This document shows, in pieces, positions 49,225 through 62,728 of a DNA stretch of 64,000 bases. The stretch is from Methanothermobacter sp. (GTDB lineage: Archaea > Methanobacteriota > Methanobacteria > Methanobacteriales > Methanothermobacteraceae): NCBI RefSeq assembly GCF_030055435.1, contig NZ_JASFYG010000001.1:268154-332153 (forward strand), given 5' to 3'. Position 1 is the stretch's first letter. Each line of letters begins with the position of its first letter. Under the pieces are notes generated by a model. The model was not told the DNA's origin, searched no databases, and saw only the letters and a list, made by a program, of their open reading frames with translations. A program made the position numbers and the translations under genes.

Positions 49225-50073
49225 CTGATAACCGGCAATACACAGCTCACGGGAATAATAGGTTACCCCCTAACCCACAGCCTCTCACCACAGATGCACA
49301 ACGCGGCGTTCAAAGCCCTTGGGATGGACTGGGCCTATGTGCCCTTCCCTGTGAAACCCTCAGGGCTTGAAGAAGCTGTTCGGGGCCTCGGAGCCCTCAA
49401 CGTGAGGGGTGTGAACGTCACAATACCCCACAAGGAGTCTGTGCTTGAACTCATCCACAAGGTTGATGAGACAGCCTCCCTCATCGGGGCCGTGAACACC
49501 CTGAAGTTTGAGGATGAAACCATAAGGGGATACAATACAGACGCATCTGGCTGCCTTAGGGCCCTTAAGGAGGTCACATCAGTTGATGGGTCCTCTGTCA
49601 TCATACTCGGGGCCGGTGGGGCTGCGAGGGCCTGCGCATTCCAGCTCGTGCTGGAAGGGGCAGATGTAACCATACTCAACAGGACCCCTGAAAGGGCCAG
49701 GGCCCTTGCAGAGGATATCAAGGGGGCCCTCGATATTAAGGTAAAACATGGTGGCTATGAACTAATACCAAGCTCTTTGGATGGGGCCGATATCCTCATA
49801 GACACAACACCCGTCGGGATGTACCCCCACATGGATGATGAGCCCCTTGTAAGAGCTGAAATCATGCATGAGGGCCTCGTTGTATATGACCTTGTCTACA
49901 ATCCTCCGGAGACATGCCTCCTGAGGGAGGCCAGGGCAGCAGGCGCTGTTCCGGTTTCAGGTCTCAGGATGCTCCTCTATCAGGGTGCTGAGGCCTTCAG
50001 GATATGGACAGGGAGGGATCCTCCCCTGGATGTAATGGAACAGGCCCTTCTTGATGCCCTCAAGGGAGTTTAA
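49225..50073 (+). CDS. aroE: Shikimate dehydrogenase, non-ATG start
   Basis: About 282 residues. Family opening ITGNTQLTGIIGYPLTHSLSPQMHN, NVTIPHKE, VIILGAGGAARACAF and the C-terminal YQGAEAFRIWTG are clear. It reduces dehydroshikimate with NADPH. The first ATG (49294) would remove the SLSP substrate-binding region. Upstream the frame is open to a TAA at 49201 but holds no ATG, GTG or TTG; the best candidate is CTG 49225, with GGTGGT nine bases before it. Confidence 0.93.
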   Translation: MITGNTQLTGIIGYPLTHSLSPQMHNAAFKALGMDWAYVPFPVKPSGLEEAVRGLGALNVRGVNVTIPHKESVLELIHKVDETASLIGAVNTLKFEDETIRGYNTDASGCLRALKEVTSVDGSSVIILGAGGAARACAFQLVLEGADVTILNRTPERARALAEDIKGALDIKVKHGGYELIPSSLDGADILIDTTPVGMYPHMDDEPLVRAEIMHEGLVVYDLVYNPPETCLLREARAAGAVPVSGLRMLLYQGAEAFRIWTGRDPPLDVMEQALLDALKGV

Positions 50074-55138: not shown

Positions 55139-58100
55139 TTATTTTCTGAGGGGTCCGAAGTAGTAGCCAACTCCGAGAAGGCAGAAGATTCCAAGTATGC
55201 CAAGAACAGCGTAGAGCTGTGTGCTGCCTGATTTCTCCTCTGCCTGTGGGGTTGAGATCTCATAGGCACTTCCAGGTTTCTGTTCTGATGCTCCTGCAAC
55301 ACCCGGGGATGATGAGCCTGACTCTGAGGCGGAGGACTGTACCGGAACACCTGCATGGGTGCCTGGAGATCTTCCTCCTCTTCCTGTGGTTCCATGGGAT
55401 CCTGTGGTGGTTCCATGATCTGAACCCTGGTTGTTTCCCTGGTCTGTGTCTGTGGAGGTACCCCCACCCGTTTCTGTGGAAGTCCCCTCACCCAGCATCT
55501 CGGATATTGCTGCAACTTCGGCCCCTGAGAGGGATACAAGTCCCCTTGTATGGGCCTGCCTCACATAGCGTGCTATCATCTGGAGGGCTGATGCATCAAG
55601 CTGTGACCTCACAGAACTGTCAAAGAGGAATGTATCGGCAATCCTCCTCCAGACATCGGCTGATGCCACGTCCACGAGGGCATCACTCATGAAGAGGTCC
55701 CTCACCTGCAGTGCTATTGATGCGCTGCCAGATGGACCCTCACGCAGTTTGCCCTGGATCCATGCGGGGTTGAGGAGTGTCACTGCAAGGTCATCGTAGG
55801 CTGACTCCTGGAGGGTCCTTATGATGGGTGTTCCGTAGGCTGTTTTTGCAATGTAGCTGTTTATGTTTCTCCCTGTGAGGTAGTTAACCATGAAGTTCAC
55901 GGTGACCGAGACCCTGTAGAGGCAGGTTCCCTCGCCGGGTGCCCTGTAGGGCATTATCACCATGCTGGCGTCAACTGTACGAAGGAGTGACTCCAGGAGT
56001 TTTGGGCTCTGGAGGCCGTTGAGGTCCCTTCCATAGGCATACGAGTAGTAGCTGAGGTAGGTCTCTGCAAGCTCTTCGGCTGTCCAGTCATCCCGTGACC
56101 AGAGTATCCTGTCGACACCTGCACCATGGGGGTCTGCACCAGGTGGCAATCCAAAGATCCTGGTCCTTGCAAGCCTGTCAGCCATTGCATCGGCCGCTGA
56201 ACTGTTCATCCCTGAGGCCACCAGTTCACTGTAGATGCCTGATCTGAGGGCAAGGTAGTGTTTTCGCACATAGTTCATCTCAGATGACTCGTTGAGGTTC
56301 GCTATCCTCTTAATTGTATTGTCTATGACGTCCATTGCCCCTGGGATCGCCCCTCGGAAGTTGTGGAAGTCGCTTATCACAACATCGATCCTTGGCCTTC
56401 CAAGTTCACTGAGTGGGATGATCTCTGTCCCGATGAGTGCTCCGCTCTCATAGACCGGTTTAACACCCAGGAAGTAGAATATGGCTGCGATGCTCTGTCC
56501 ACCGGTTGATATAATGTCACCTATATCCACGGCAACGGTTTCAGGGTACCTTCCACTGTTTGCCTCCCTGTGGCGTTTAAGCATCTCCTCTGCAGCCCTT
56601 GATCCCATCACCACCGCTGCGGGGTCAGGGATGGATGATGGGTCAAAGGTGTACATGTTCCGGCCTGTTGGAAGCGCCGCAAGGTTGATTATGGGGCTTC
56701 TCGCTGGAGCTGGCTGTATGAATTCCCCGTTGAGGGCCCTCAGGAGTGAGGCCATCTCGTTACTGGCACTCATGATGAGAAGGTTTCTTATCTCATCCCT
56801 CCTTGCCGTTCTGTTTGCAGGGTCAAAGGATATGATTGCATCAAGGAACCTCTCAAGGGTTTCACTGTCAGGGAGCTCCCCGAAGGTGTGGAGCCCGTAG
56901 GGCATGAGGATCTCTGTGAGCTCATGGAGGTACTCCTCAAGTCTCAGTCTGAGGACACTGAAGGGGGTTGAGTTACTCACGTTGAGCCTCACTTCGAGGC
57001 CAGCCCTCTTCACACCATCCCTTATGAGGGATTCCAGGACGTTCATCCTGTCCCTATCCCCTGATGCCTCTGCAGTGCTGTAGGATCCCAGGAGGTCTGC
57101 AAGTTCCTGGTATACGCCGTAGAGTTCAGTCCTCATGACCGGTGGTATGAGGTATGAGATGGTAACGGCGTATGCCCTCCTCTTGGCAGGGTTTATAACG
57201 GCCTCAAGGGGGTCCTCCATCTTGAGGAGGTGTATGTTGGGGATGGATCCTATGAGGGTGTTTGGCCAGTCATCCTCTGTCATGGCATTCACATGGCCCG
57301 GTAGCAGCTCCAGTGTCCCGTGCTGCCCCACGTGTACCACTGCGTCGGCCCTGAATCCATTCTGAAGCCAGAGGTAGAAGGCTATGAACTGGTGTGTCGG
57401 TGGTAGTGTGCCGTTGTTGAGTGTACCGTTCCACCTCCAGACCGGCTGCGGACCCATAAACATGTTGCCGAGCATGAAGCCGGGGATCACAATGCTGCTG
57501 TTGTAGACCATGATGTTACCTGGAGCCGGACCCCACATTGCCTCAACCTGGCGCCTGAGGGTTACCGGGAGCTTTGAATACCACCTGAGGTACTCTGAAA
57601 CCGGCACCGTGATGCATCCAGCCTCAACCAGTTTCCGGAGTTCTGACTGTGTCATGTTCCTGGGGTTTCTTCCAGCCCTGTTTATGAGTTCATAGATGTA
57701 CTCGGGGGTCAGATTTCCGTTTCCAGTGGTGTAACCTGCTGCCCTCATTGCAAGGAGTATGTTGCTCAGACTGCCGTAGAGGTTGAGGCCATTGGTTGCC
57801 GGCATCCCCTCATCATGGGTGCTGTCAAAGTAGACGATGGCCACCCTCTTGTCACTGTTCACCTTCTTCCGGAGATTCACCCAGGCAAGTGTTCGCTCAA
57901 CCAGCTGGTTTATCCCGGGCTCATAGGCCACGTATTCCTTGAGTGTGACCCCGGTTAGCGGGTCAGGGTCAGAGACCCTGTTACCACCTATAAGTATGGG
58001 TTCTATTCGCCCCTGCATCTCAAACATGGCGAGCCAGTAGTACTCCAGGCCCCTGAGGCCCTGCTGTCTGCTGCTGTTTATGTAATCATCCAGTGAGGTC

Positions 58101-59083
58101 TGCAGGAACACCGGGAGCGGGCCCTGAACAGGTACGTTGAGGTCAGTGAAGAAGGTTATGGTCTGGTTGTCTGGCCAGTAACCGAACTGTACACAGGCAA
58201 CAAGGGCGTCAATCACCGAACTGTTGTTGACCATGAAGAAGCGCCTCGAGGCCCCTATGGGGTCTGAACAGTAGAAGTAGGGTATCACGTTGAGTCCCTT
58301 TGCCTCGAGTTTCTGTATGAGGGTCTCATAGACGTCCATGTTACCCGATAGGTAGTATCGGTTCAGTATAGCAACCCCCACCCATGGGGCCCCTGGCCTG
58401 TAGAGGGTGGTGTTCATGTACCATTCTGTGTAGGATTCTCTGTCTGTGTAAACACGTGGTGCCAGTGGATGGTAGAGGAAGTCCTGCATTCCAGGTACCA
58501 GTTTTGTGTCGTTTGCAGTGAGGTTAACGGCCCCGCTGAGCCTCAGGACCTCCAGGAGCGTCCTCTTTATGTTCTCCCGTGAGAGTGCAGGTGCTGCCAC
58601 CGGACCATAGGCTGGAAGGTTGGTTACATTAACACCTGTCACGTTGGGTTTTACAGGGCCCAGGACGAATATTCGCGCCCCAGGTTTCATGCTGGCTGCG
58701 AGGGCCTGGAAGTCGACTGCTGCATCGAATTCCGTCCCATAGCTCATCCCTGTCACCGGGTAACCGGGTCTTGTGAAGAGGAAGAATATATCTGCGTTCT
58801 TCACGTCATTTTTGAACTGGCTGGATGCCGTTGAGTTGAGGTTGAAGGTGTCCATGGTGTATATTTTCAGACTGAAGTTGTATCCAGCGGGGAGGAGGTC
58901 GTTGTGGTATGCGTCGTTCATTATGGGGTCGACGGTTCCCACCACGCAGCCTGTGAGGAGCACCACCATGTTTGTATCCTTCAGCATCTTTGACTCTGTT
59001 GTGTTGGTGTCGTTGTCTGCCGCTGAGACTGATGGAACTGAAACAATGAGCAGAATAAGTGCTATCAGCAGAAACTTCTTCAT
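55139..59083 (-). CDS. Extracytoplasmic CobN-like chelatase-family protein
   Basis: 1314 residues. An N-terminal signal peptide (about 1-22, ending SVSA) precedes a CobN/BchH-type domain. Visible family features are HVGQHGTLELLPG at about 610-622 (cf. HGTxExLPG), PNIHLLKMEDPLEA, VVISDFHNFRGAIPGAMD near 910, and FGLPPGADPHGAG at about 985. The C-terminus has a low-complexity Ser/Gly/Thr linker (about 1190-1275) and a single transmembrane helix (LYAVLGILGIFCLLGVGYYFG) with a basic tail, so the mature protein should be membrane-anchored and face outside. Known CobN inserts cobalt into corrin in the cytoplasm with CobS/CobT; no such partners lie nearby. Ribosome-binding site AGGAGGTG. Confidence 0.85.
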   Translation of the reverse strand: MKKFLLIALILLIVSVPSVSAADNDTNTTESKMLKDTNMVVLLTGCVVGTVDPIMNDAYHNDLLPAGYNFSLKIYTMDTFNLNSTASSQFKNDVKNADIFFLFTRPGYPVTGMSYGTEFDAAVDFQALAASMKPGARIFVLGPVKPNVTGVNVTNLPAYGPVAAPALSRENIKRTLLEVLRLSGAVNLTANDTKLVPGMQDFLYHPLAPRVYTDRESYTEWYMNTTLYRPGAPWVGVAILNRYYLSGNMDVYETLIQKLEAKGLNVIPYFYCSDPIGASRRFFMVNNSSVIDALVACVQFGYWPDNQTITFFTDLNVPVQGPLPVFLQTSLDDYINSSRQQGLRGLEYYWLAMFEMQGRIEPILIGGNRVSDPDPLTGVTLKEYVAYEPGINQLVERTLAWVNLRKKVNSDKRVAIVYFDSTHDEGMPATNGLNLYGSLSNILLAMRAAGYTTGNGNLTPEYIYELINRAGRNPRNMTQSELRKLVEAGCITVPVSEYLRWYSKLPVTLRRQVEAMWGPAPGNIMVYNSSIVIPGFMLGNMFMGPQPVWRWNGTLNNGTLPPTHQFIAFYLWLQNGFRADAVVHVGQHGTLELLPGHVNAMTEDDWPNTLIGSIPNIHLLKMEDPLEAVINPAKRRAYAVTISYLIPPVMRTELYGVYQELADLLGSYSTAEASGDRDRMNVLESLIRDGVKRAGLEVRLNVSNSTPFSVLRLRLEEYLHELTEILMPYGLHTFGELPDSETLERFLDAIISFDPANRTARRDEIRNLLIMSASNEMASLLRALNGEFIQPAPARSPIINLAALPTGRNMYTFDPSSIPDPAAVVMGSRAAEEMLKRHREANSGRYPETVAVDIGDIISTGGQSIAAIFYFLGVKPVYESGALIGTEIIPLSELGRPRIDVVISDFHNFRGAIPGAMDVIDNTIKRIANLNESSEMNYVRKHYLALRSGIYSELVASGMNSSAADAMADRLARTRIFGLPPGADPHGAGVDRILWSRDDWTAEELAETYLSYYSYAYGRDLNGLQSPKLLESLLRTVDASMVIMPYRAPGEGTCLYRVSVTVNFMVNYLTGRNINSYIAKTAYGTPIIRTLQESAYDDLAVTLLNPAWIQGKLREGPSGSASIALQVRDLFMSDALVDVASADVWRRIADTFLFDSSVRSQLDASALQMIARYVRQAHTRGLVSLSGAEVAAISEMLGEGTSTETGGGTSTDTDQGNNQGSDHGTTTGSHGTTGRGGRSPGTHAGVPVQSSASESGSSSPGVAGASEQKPGSAYEISTPQAEEKSGSTQLYAVLGILGIFCLLGVGYYFGPLRK

Positions 59084-59260
59084 TTTTTCACCTCCTTTAA
59101 ATTTTTAATAATTTGCTGATTCAATATCGTAAAGAGATTTGATGGGATTCTATTTAAATCTTAATTAAAATATTCTAAGTATGAACAATTTAAAAAAGAG
59201 TAGGTCAAAAGTAATACCTGATTCATGTTTTAAATGAAATGATTTCTCATATGGTAAGCC

Positions 59261-60704: not shown

Positions 60705-60735
60705 GAGTGGGGTTTCCAGATGGGGAGGTTGAAGT

Positions 60736-61104
60736 ATGGACAGATACACTGCTGGAATGGAGATACTTGAGAGGATACACAGGGAGTCCTACAGGAAGCT
60801 GCGTGATGAACTTGAGGATGTTGCACCTGATCTTTCAAGGTTCGTGGTTGAATTTGCATACGGTGACATCTACTCCAGGGATGCGCTGGATCTTAAAACA
60901 AGGGAACTTGTCACCGTGGCTGCCCTTACGGTTCTTGGGGCTGAAAAACAGTTGAAAAGTCATGTGAAGGGTGCCCTCAATGCCGGGTGCAGCAGGGAGG
61001 AGATAATTGAGGTCCTAATCCAGATGGCTGTCTATGCAGGGTTCCCTGCAGCCATAAATGGTGTTACTGCGGCAGCTGAGGTTTTCAGGGAGATGGATGA
61101 ATAA
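60736..61104 (+). CDS. Carboxymuconolactone decarboxylase family protein (AhpD-like fold)
   Basis: 122 residues; [59 protein letters not shown] is the CMD core. The CxxxH/CxxC redox motif of AhpD is lacking; one cysteine (AGCSREE) remains. In methanogens such proteins have unknown roles. ATG 60736 follows GGGGAGGTTGAAGT. Confidence 0.9.
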
Positions 61105-61116
61105 ATCCAGAGGGCC

Positions 61117-61872
61117 TCAGAGGCCAAAAATTCTTTCTGCATTGGATGTTGTCACCCTGTCAACATCCTCAACATCGGTTTCCTTGATCTCTGCTATTTT
61201 CTTAACCGCTTCAGCCACAAATGCTGGCTCGTTGCGCTTCCCCCTGAAAGGGGAGAGGTAGGGACTGTCTGTCTCTGTAAGCATACTCTCCAGCGGGAGG
61301 TCCTCCACAAGTTTCATGTGGTGATCTGAGAAGGTCACAAGTGTGGATATTGATATGTGGTAGCCAGCGTCCATTATCCTCTCTGCAGTGGATAGGCTGC
61401 CGCCGTAGCAGTGAAAGACCACCTCTGGTATGCTGTACTCCAGTACAATCTCAAGGGCCCTCTCCTCGGCGTCCCTTGCATGGACAACCAGGGGCATCTC
61501 ATGTTCCTCTGCAAGTTTGGCGAAGATTCTGAAGGCCTCCTCCTGTCTTCTTCTTCCTTCAGCATCGTGGGTGTGGTGGAAATCCATCCCTGTCTCACCT
61601 ATGGCCACGATCCTGTCAATGTGTGATTCTATCTGCCCCGAGACCTCCTCTATGAGTTCAGGTCTGGCCTTTGATGCGTCGGCAGGATGGAAACCCATGG
61701 TGGGGTATATGAATCCTGGATAATCTGAGGAAAGTGCAAGGGCTCTCCTGTTGCCCCCGAGTCCAACACCGGAATCTATAACAGCCCTCAGTTTTCCCTT
61801 TGCCCTTTCAATAACTTCTTCACGGTTTCTGTTGAAGTCCTTGAAGTCCAGGTGACAGTGAACATCTATTAT
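61117..61872 (-). CDS. tatD: TatD-family metal-dependent hydrolase, apparently AUA start
   Basis: About 251 residues of the TIM-barrel TatD nuclease family: VHCHLDFKDF (HxH metal ligands), IGETGMDFHHTHD, VVHARDAEE, VVFHCYGG and LTETDSPYLSPFRG. The shorter ATG at 61698 would delete the HxH motif. The frame is open to an upstream TAA, but contains no ATG, GTG or TTG before VHCH; ATA at 61872 has GGAGGG six bases away and gives MIDVHCHLD. TatD removes damaged or 3' ends of DNA. Convergent with the CMD gene. Confidence 0.85.
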   Translation of the reverse strand: MIDVHCHLDFKDFNRNREEVIERAKGKLRAVIDSGVGLGGNRRALALSSDYPGFIYPTMGFHPADASKARPELIEEVSGQIESHIDRIVAIGETGMDFHHTHDAEGRRRQEEAFRIFAKLAEEHEMPLVVHARDAEERALEIVLEYSIPEVVFHCYGGSLSTAERIMDAGYHISISTLVTFSDHHMKLVEDLPLESMLTETDSPYLSPFRGKRNEPAFVAEAVKKIAEIKETDVEDVDRVTTSNAERIFGL

Positions 61873-61960
61873 ATTGATCCCTCCATTGATAGCTTGGATA
61901 TCATGTCCTTTTTATATCCATTTTAGGACATTATAGCCTTAAAAGTCACTTGAAGCGAAT

Positions 61961-62728
61961 CTAGGCACCGAATCTCCTCTCCCTCTGCTGGTATGACCTT
62001 ATAGCCCTTAAAAAGTCAACCTTTCGAAGTTCTGGCCATAGGCTGTCGCAGAAGTACAGTTCTGAATAGGATGACTGCCAGAGAAGAAATCCGCTGAGGC
62101 GCTCCTCACCACTGGTCCTTATTATGAGGTGGGGATCCTCCAGTCCAGCGGTGTAGAGGTTCCTGTTTATCATGTCCTCATCTATGTCCTCAGGGTCAAT
62201 GCGGCCGGCCCTGACGTCCTCGGCGATTTTCCTTGCGGCGTCCACTATCTCCTGTCTGCCATCATATCCTATTGCGATGTTCACAAGTCGATCAGAGTAT
62301 CCCTCAGTTGACCTCTCAGCAACCTCTATAGCCTTTCTAACATCTTCAGGGAGCAGTTCAAGTTTTCCGACTGCCTTGACCCTGACACGGTTTTTATGGA
62401 TCTTCTTATTGCTTGCTATGGCCTCGAAGTTCTCCTTGAAGAGCTTCATTAGTCCTTTAACCTCGTTTTCTGGCCTTTTAAAGTTTTCGGTTGAGAATGC
62501 ATAGGCGGTTACTATCTCTATTCCAAGGTCAACACACCAGTCCAGGACCTTCTCTAGTGTCTCAATACCCTTCTTGTGACCCTCTATGGGGTCCAGGCTG
62601 CCCTGGAGTCGTGAGTATCTTCTGTTACCATCCATTATAATGGCAACGTGCCTTGGCATTCTTTCCCTTTTTAGGTTGCGCGATATGTACCACTCATAAA
62701 GTTTGTAAAGAGGTTTTAAAGGTGACAT
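61961..62728 (-). CDS. uppS: cis-Prenyltransferase (undecaprenyl diphosphate synthase family)
   Basis: 255 residues: [46 protein letters not shown]-like, [15 protein letters not shown] and [29 protein letters not shown] are the family boxes. Archaeal members make long polyprenyl diphosphates used as glycan carriers, linking to the wall and glycosyltransferase genes of this window. ATG 62728 is used. It is downstream of mtxX. Confidence 0.95.

Follow-up and report, generated by a model that had tools for sequence, protein, structure and literature searches.

The tatD locus

The window is the whole stretch of Methanothermobacter sp. DNA that was analysed, 64,000 nucleotides in length. On its minus strand, a reading frame (61911-61117) opens directly after an in-frame TAA (61914-61912) and encodes a protein of the TatD family of nucleases (Table 1). 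The product matches the Pfam family TatD_DNase (PF01026, 1.9e-77 in a profile search) and the NCBIfam model TIGR00010, where it scores 274.6 bits (cut-off 206) over model positions 1-252 of 253. The translation carries the motifs HCH, GETGMD, VVHARD, VFHCYGG and TETDSP and was aligned with the solved relative PDB 2y1h (TATDN3); 1yix (YcfH) and 4p5u (TatD) are other family members with known structures. We take the metal-binding residues among these motifs to be those of the HxH and the later Glu, His, His and Asp ligands. The gene is under purifying selection, as third codon positions have changed 2.5-3.3 times as often as positions 1 and 2 on average. Judged by profile and motifs, the frame is a real TatD-family nuclease gene with a predicted nuclease activity. 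Set beside the known family (TIGR00010; 2y1h, 1yix, 4p5u), the window protein is a full-length homologue with HxH and the later motifs, and the sole oddity of the gene is its initiation codon.

The leader reads AAA GGA CAT GAT ATC CAA GCT ATC AAT GGA GGG ATC AAT and is followed by ATA ATA GAT GTT CAC TGT CAC CTG GAC. The original prediction held that no canonical start precedes the HxH motif (VHCHLD), and this is borne out: ATG, GTG and TTG are absent from all 13 leader codons between the TAA stop and the first ATA, and from there up to HxH, in this window. The first downstream canonical codon in frame is an ATG 58 codons on, at about 61698, behind HxH. The prediction had also placed this ATA six bases from GGAGGG, correctly so, as 6 nt lie between the two (equivalent to 7 nt after GGAGG). 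The GGAGG-GATC of the leader is one base short of GGAGGTGATC, which we take to be the archaeal Shine-Dalgarno consensus.

Table 1. Features of the tatD region and the aroE gene in the window.
Feature	Position	Strand	Evidence or remark
tatD CDS, TatD-family metal-dependent nuclease, 251 aa	61117..61872	-	HxH and later His/Glu/Asp motifs
Proposed tatD initiation codon ATA (Met via initiator tRNA)	61870..61872	-	Conservation onset, homologous codon in relatives, spacing
Second ATA, Ile codon 2; possible but less likely start	61867..61869	-	10 nt after GGAGG
GGAGGG Shine-Dalgarno, then ATC	61879..61884	-	GGAGG in 8/8 genus genomes; GGGGG in 4/4 genomes of the second family
uppS (cis-prenyltransferase), upstream of tatD	61961..62728	-	Stop TAG 88 nt before ATA 61872
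aroE (shikimate dehydrogenase), conserved non-canonical start CTG 49225-49227 after GGTTGTGATAAA	49225..50070	+	8/8 genus genomes

The 3' end of uppS lies upstream of tatD in all 16 loci that were compared by eye. A frameshift fusion of tatD with uppS was considered and dismissed, because the TAA at 61914-61912, which follows the uppS stop and precedes the ATA, closes the tatD frame. The gene for the methanogenesis marker MtxX is found two genes upstream of tatD. On the other side, a carboxymuconolactone-decarboxylase-like gene (60733-61104, plus strand) is convergent with tatD, with 12 bp between the two stop codons (window 61104-61117).

The start codon in related genomes

Of 151 genomes of the class, 91 were read at the tatD start region: eight from the genus of this genome, four from a second family, 78 from a third, which we take to be Methanobacteriaceae, and one from a fourth. 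The nearest named relatives are Methanobacteriaceae and Methanobrevibacter MAGs.

All eight genus genomes possess tatD, and the homologous codon is ATA in five of them (L001-L005) and ATT in three (L006-L008). The four genomes of the second family all have ATA (L090, L091, L092, L094), so that ATA occurs nine times, ATT three times and ATG not once in these 12 genomes. Within the genus the third base of the codon alternates between A and T, and G is absent among the eight genomes. In the third family, 77 of the 78 genomes carry ATG as the homologous codon (18/18 in one set and 59/60 in another); the remaining genome, G045 (L136), has ATA with a stop codon directly in front of it and AGGTGAT four bases upstream. 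The single genome of the fourth family has TTG. More distant relatives carry an in-frame ATG, GTG or TTG no more than 12 codons before HxH in every one of 76 cases tested (L013-L089 minus L046, which is cut at a contig end, from 80 relatives found). Because canonical starts stand at the homologous place in relatives, this place is the gene start there, and the genus and the second family differ from them only in the codon.

Third positions of tatD have turned over widely, as indicated by fourfold-degenerate sites, of which 14/104 to 52/82 differ between this genome and six of its seven sisters (L003 left out). At the widest divergence in the genus (52/82, L001/L008), ATG is still absent at the start. 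In a TatD tree of 36 rows, the genus forms one clade and the second family another, with a poorly supported order of families. With 33 rows, a single clade of the two is compatible with the data (p-AU 0.254), and a clade that also includes the ATA-bearing G045 is rejected (p-AU 0.000136), leaving G045 apart. Thus, on this single-gene tree, the start codon changed more than once, either by separate gains or by returns to ATG. Given the canonical starts of 76/76 distant relatives and 77/78 genomes of the third family, a canonical start is the probable ancestral state, and the change to AUA or AUU probably took place before the genus arose.

Conservation and spacing at the start

Residue conservation of TatD switches on exactly at the ATA/ATT codon in the 12 genomes of the genus and the second family. 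The codon immediately before it (codon -1) specifies seven different residues, codons 1, 2 and 3 are each invariant in residue, and changes in the HxH codons are all synonymous. Among the genus genomes, 4 and 8 are the only codons from 2 to 24 at which the residue differs. Residue 1 of the ATA-started protein pairs with position 1 of the TIGR00010 model. In eight of the 12 genomes, that of the window included, the stretch from the upstream stop to the ATA/ATT codon contains no in-frame ATG, GTG or TTG, and in L091 this stop lies merely five codons before the ATA.

In the genus, GGAGG is located 7-8 nt before the start codon. The second family has GGGGG, a poorer match, 8-9 nt before its ATA. 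Among 181 frames from the genome G002, canonical starts led by GGAGG most commonly have a spacing of 7 nt (8/36), and 10 nt is found in 3/36. The same frames contain 56 pairs of GGAGG with ATA, ATT or ATC at 2-15 nt, five of them at 7 nt, so spacing by itself is weak evidence for a start. The presumed pairing partner of GGAGG is the anti-Shine-Dalgarno sequence at the 3' end of archaeal 16S rRNA. A search with RF01959 matched no archaeal 16S rRNA in G000 and five relatives (G002, G005, G007, G009 and G120), against matches in 9 of 14 control genomes. Predicted RNA folding around the tatD start is unremarkable in three of the four genomes compared (z of 1.04, 0.95 and 0.62; -1.41 in L090).

Two further candidates near the ribosome-binding site were rejected. 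The ATC at 61878 stands directly behind GGAGGG and is out of frame in L008. A coupled short reading frame beginning at an out-of-frame ATG over the Shine-Dalgarno sequence (ATG GAG GGA TCA ATA TAA in the window, with ATG in L002-L004 too) was dropped, because L005 carries AAG instead.

Alternative readings

The original prediction left two possibilities, either that AUA initiates or that an ATG has mutated to ATA and the gene is weakly expressed, and in the latter case it expected ATG in sister strains. The comparison favours the former, as the sisters carry ATA or ATT at the homologous place behind a retained ribosome-binding site. The latter fails as a recent strain-level event: none of the eight genus genomes and none of the four genomes of the second family has ATG. 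A mutation or sequencing error confined to this genome, with a gene that is weakly expressed or decaying, would need only a single transition, and the start of nadA is reported to have mutated from ATG to ATA in an engineered Halobacterium strain (PMC11834397). Yet all seven sisters and the second family share the feature, in a gene under purifying selection, and we regard such a recent event as next to impossible. Use of a canonical start elsewhere, either upstream of or inside the Shine-Dalgarno sequence or at the internal ATG near 61698, would turn the ATA into an ordinary internal or untranslated codon. An in-frame ATG or TTG that could in principle serve as the start does lie 5-6 codons upstream in four of the 12 genomes, as ATG GGA GGT in L006 and L007, ATG TGG GGG in L094 and TTG TGG GGG in L092, the last of which additionally has an in-frame GTG at -14. 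However, these candidates stand in or just before the Shine-Dalgarno sequence, are differently placed in the two families and are followed by unconserved residues, whereas the other eight genomes offer no upstream candidate at all. A start near 61698 would lose HxH, yet residues are nearly constant over codons 2-24 in the genus. We consider a canonical start elsewhere very improbable.

Initiation at the second ATA (61869) instead of the first is very improbable in our judgement. This codon is ATA in 12/12 genomes, whereas the first is ATA or ATT, but ATA is the commonest Ile codon in the G002 sample (2140/3867), so its constancy at an Ile position is unsurprising. Its spacing from GGAGG is also less favourable, at 10 nt rather than 7 nt. 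The start was put at 61872 mainly because the ATG of relatives aligns with that codon, as does the TTG. A different kind of explanation accepts the non-canonical codon as the start and regards it as neutral, an old mutation without a role in regulation that is tolerated because the Shine-Dalgarno sequence suffices. The genus has several unrelated genes that start likewise (see below), as a permissive initiation system would give, and one of them, aroE, is an unlikely candidate for throttling. Against neutrality, the one-step return to ATG is absent in 12 genomes despite fourfold change of up to 52/82, and in 36 prokaryote groups purifying selection acts for AUG, with a single AUG-to-AUU switch in 61,358 (PMC5622118). 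Neutrality is quite possible, although we lean against it.

Proposed mechanism and comparison with known systems

Our preferred reading, which we consider highly likely, is that tatD starts at AUA 61872, where slow initiation would give a normal product at a low rate. Pairing of GGAGG at the 7-nt spacing would park the 30S subunit over the AUA and could keep this codon in the P site for long enough. Although AUA, or AUU in three sister species, mismatches at the third base, initiator Met-tRNA would then accept it as a near-cognate codon, and initiation would be slow as aIF1 disfavours such codons. The product, synthesised at a low rate, would be the normal TatD nuclease of 251 residues with the N-terminus Met-Ile-Asp-Val-His-Cys-His, and low or stringency-dependent expression may have been selected. 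Beyond the observed codon, its conservation, the kept ribosome-binding site, the conservation boundary and the intact frame with its motifs, we infer initiation at AUA/AUU, Met as residue 1, a low yield and a regulatory role of the start. Weak expression of tatD, which the original prediction had tied to mutation, is plausible. AUA/AUU has long been retained although a single step would restore AUG, which suggests selection for low or stringency-dependent expression; selection may hold these codons in the clade, in a TatD gene tree whose family order is poorly supported. No autoregulatory loop is expected for tatD, as TatD is not an initiation factor.

Within Archaea, published work describes AUG, GUG and UUG as the start codons (review PMC7531240) and aIF1 as a factor that rejects poor start codons and destabilises complexes on non-AUG messages (PMC6237735). 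One survey admits genes annotated with AUA, AUU or AUC starts (PMC5397173). A comparison of 36 prokaryote groups counts one AUG-to-AUU change among 61,358 ancestral AUG starts, which marks this change as rare among annotated genes (PMC5622118). In an Asgard archaeon, an ATT start was inferred by the authors for the tubulin AtubA in one MAG (PMC13394414). The tatD case resembles it in that a rare near-cognate start of an archaeal gene is deduced from a missing N-terminus and a plausibly spaced ribosome-binding site, but differs in that ATA/ATT spans 12 genomes of two families, whereas the available text on AtubA mentions no conservation of its codon. Our literature search, with most subscription journals outside its scope and older reports possible, turned up neither a conserved AUA or AUU start in Archaea nor any account of tatD in Methanothermobacter.

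Known cases in Bacteria include infC of Escherichia coli, which starts at AUU and is subject to autoregulation by IF3. Binns and Masters are said to have found in 2002 that E. coli pcnB is translationally limited by its AUU start. Like pcnB, which encodes the bacterial poly(A) polymerase and was studied experimentally, tatD encodes a nucleic-acid enzyme with an AUU/AUA start. The sigR gene of Streptomyces starts at GTC and is repressed by IF3 (PMC5472188); tatD is like infC and sigR in retaining a non-canonical start, with control exerted there via bacterial IF3.

The closest demonstrated parallels are found in Staphylococcus aureus, where infC (AUA), ccpN (AUA) and cvfC1 (AUU) have extended Shine-Dalgarno sequences, the latter two with conserved start codons (PMC13009471). 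In poor medium, the yield from the cvfC1 (AUU), ccpN (AUA) and citZ (AUA) starts is about 10% of that from AUG; for ccpN it reaches as much as 30% when the medium is rich (PMC13009471). As in infC, ccpN and cvfC1, the AUA/AUU start of tatD is combined with a strong Shine-Dalgarno sequence at a suitable spacing, and such starts extend beyond initiation-factor genes, with cross-species retention for ccpN and cvfC1. Unlike tatD, for which the factor would be archaeal aIF1 and the evidence is comparative, the S. aureus cases involve bacterial IF3 and are supported by ribosome profiling and by reporters (ccpN, cvfC1). The interchange of ATA and ATT within a genus sets tatD apart from them.

The retention of an AUA/AUU start across two families speaks, on comparative grounds, for the use of AUN codons by archaeal ribosomes in real genes, and it indicates that a weak start can persist for long. 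Automatic gene calling may make such proteins too short or too long; in tatD, use of the next ATG would drop the catalytic HxH.

Other non-canonical starts in the genus

We surveyed starts in about 220 kb from each of four genus genomes together with the window, and in 100 kb from each of four genomes of the third family as a control. In the genus, 17 of 177 coding-like groups were flagged as having no canonical start near the conserved onset, and three of the 177 were accepted by eye: tatD, aroE and a gene without a Pfam match (L189:14330-15100). One group of secreted proteins is ambiguous. The other 13 flagged groups, judged collectively, were rejected for a canonical start slightly further on, the look of a shadow frame or poor alignment. 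The control gave three flagged groups out of 58 and none accepted, and 3/177 versus 0/58 does not establish a difference in permissiveness between the families. Conserved non-canonical starts thus occur in at least two further genes of the genus besides tatD, namely aroE (CTG) and the L189 gene (ATA).

The start region of aroE, GATAAA CTG ATA AC, is found in all eight genus genomes. The homologous codon is ATG (three genomes) or TTG (one) in the second family, ATG in the fourth family and GTG in one genome of the third. Seven of the eight genus genomes have no in-frame ATG, GTG or TTG upstream of the CTG back to the stop, and G001 has two ATGs; a further CTG lies seven codons upstream in five genus genomes. 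In G005 (L278), the aroE frame is seemingly shifted by one base shortly behind the CTG, by mutation or sequencing error. The Pfam-less gene, of about 255 codons, has GGGGG followed by ATA AAA in all seven genus genomes that contain a match, with no canonical start upstream in these seven; it was unmatched in G000.

Methanothermobacter-like archaea might keep a set of genes near-cognate (tatD with AUA/AUU, aroE with CUG, the Pfam-less gene with AUA and possibly the secreted proteins with AUU) and so tune their low translation jointly through aIF1-dependent stringency. We put this forward tentatively, as an idea that is more doubtful than not. If true, joint control by aIF1 would be the archaeal counterpart of the IF3-dependent control of AUU/AUA starts in Bacteria. 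The genus supplies several genes for direct tests of archaeal start-codon stringency.

The secreted-protein group may start at ATT, though ATG or TTG stands four codons later. Its reading frames (in G001, G002, G005 and G007; L113, L114, L119, L187-L226) share GGAGGCGGTAAAATT / GGAGGCGGTAAAATTTCG just before or at the start. A large reading frame in the window (55141-59104, minus strand) has a signal-peptide-like start, which is ATG in seven of eight genomes; the G007 orthologue (L119) has ATC behind GGAGGTGAAAAT.
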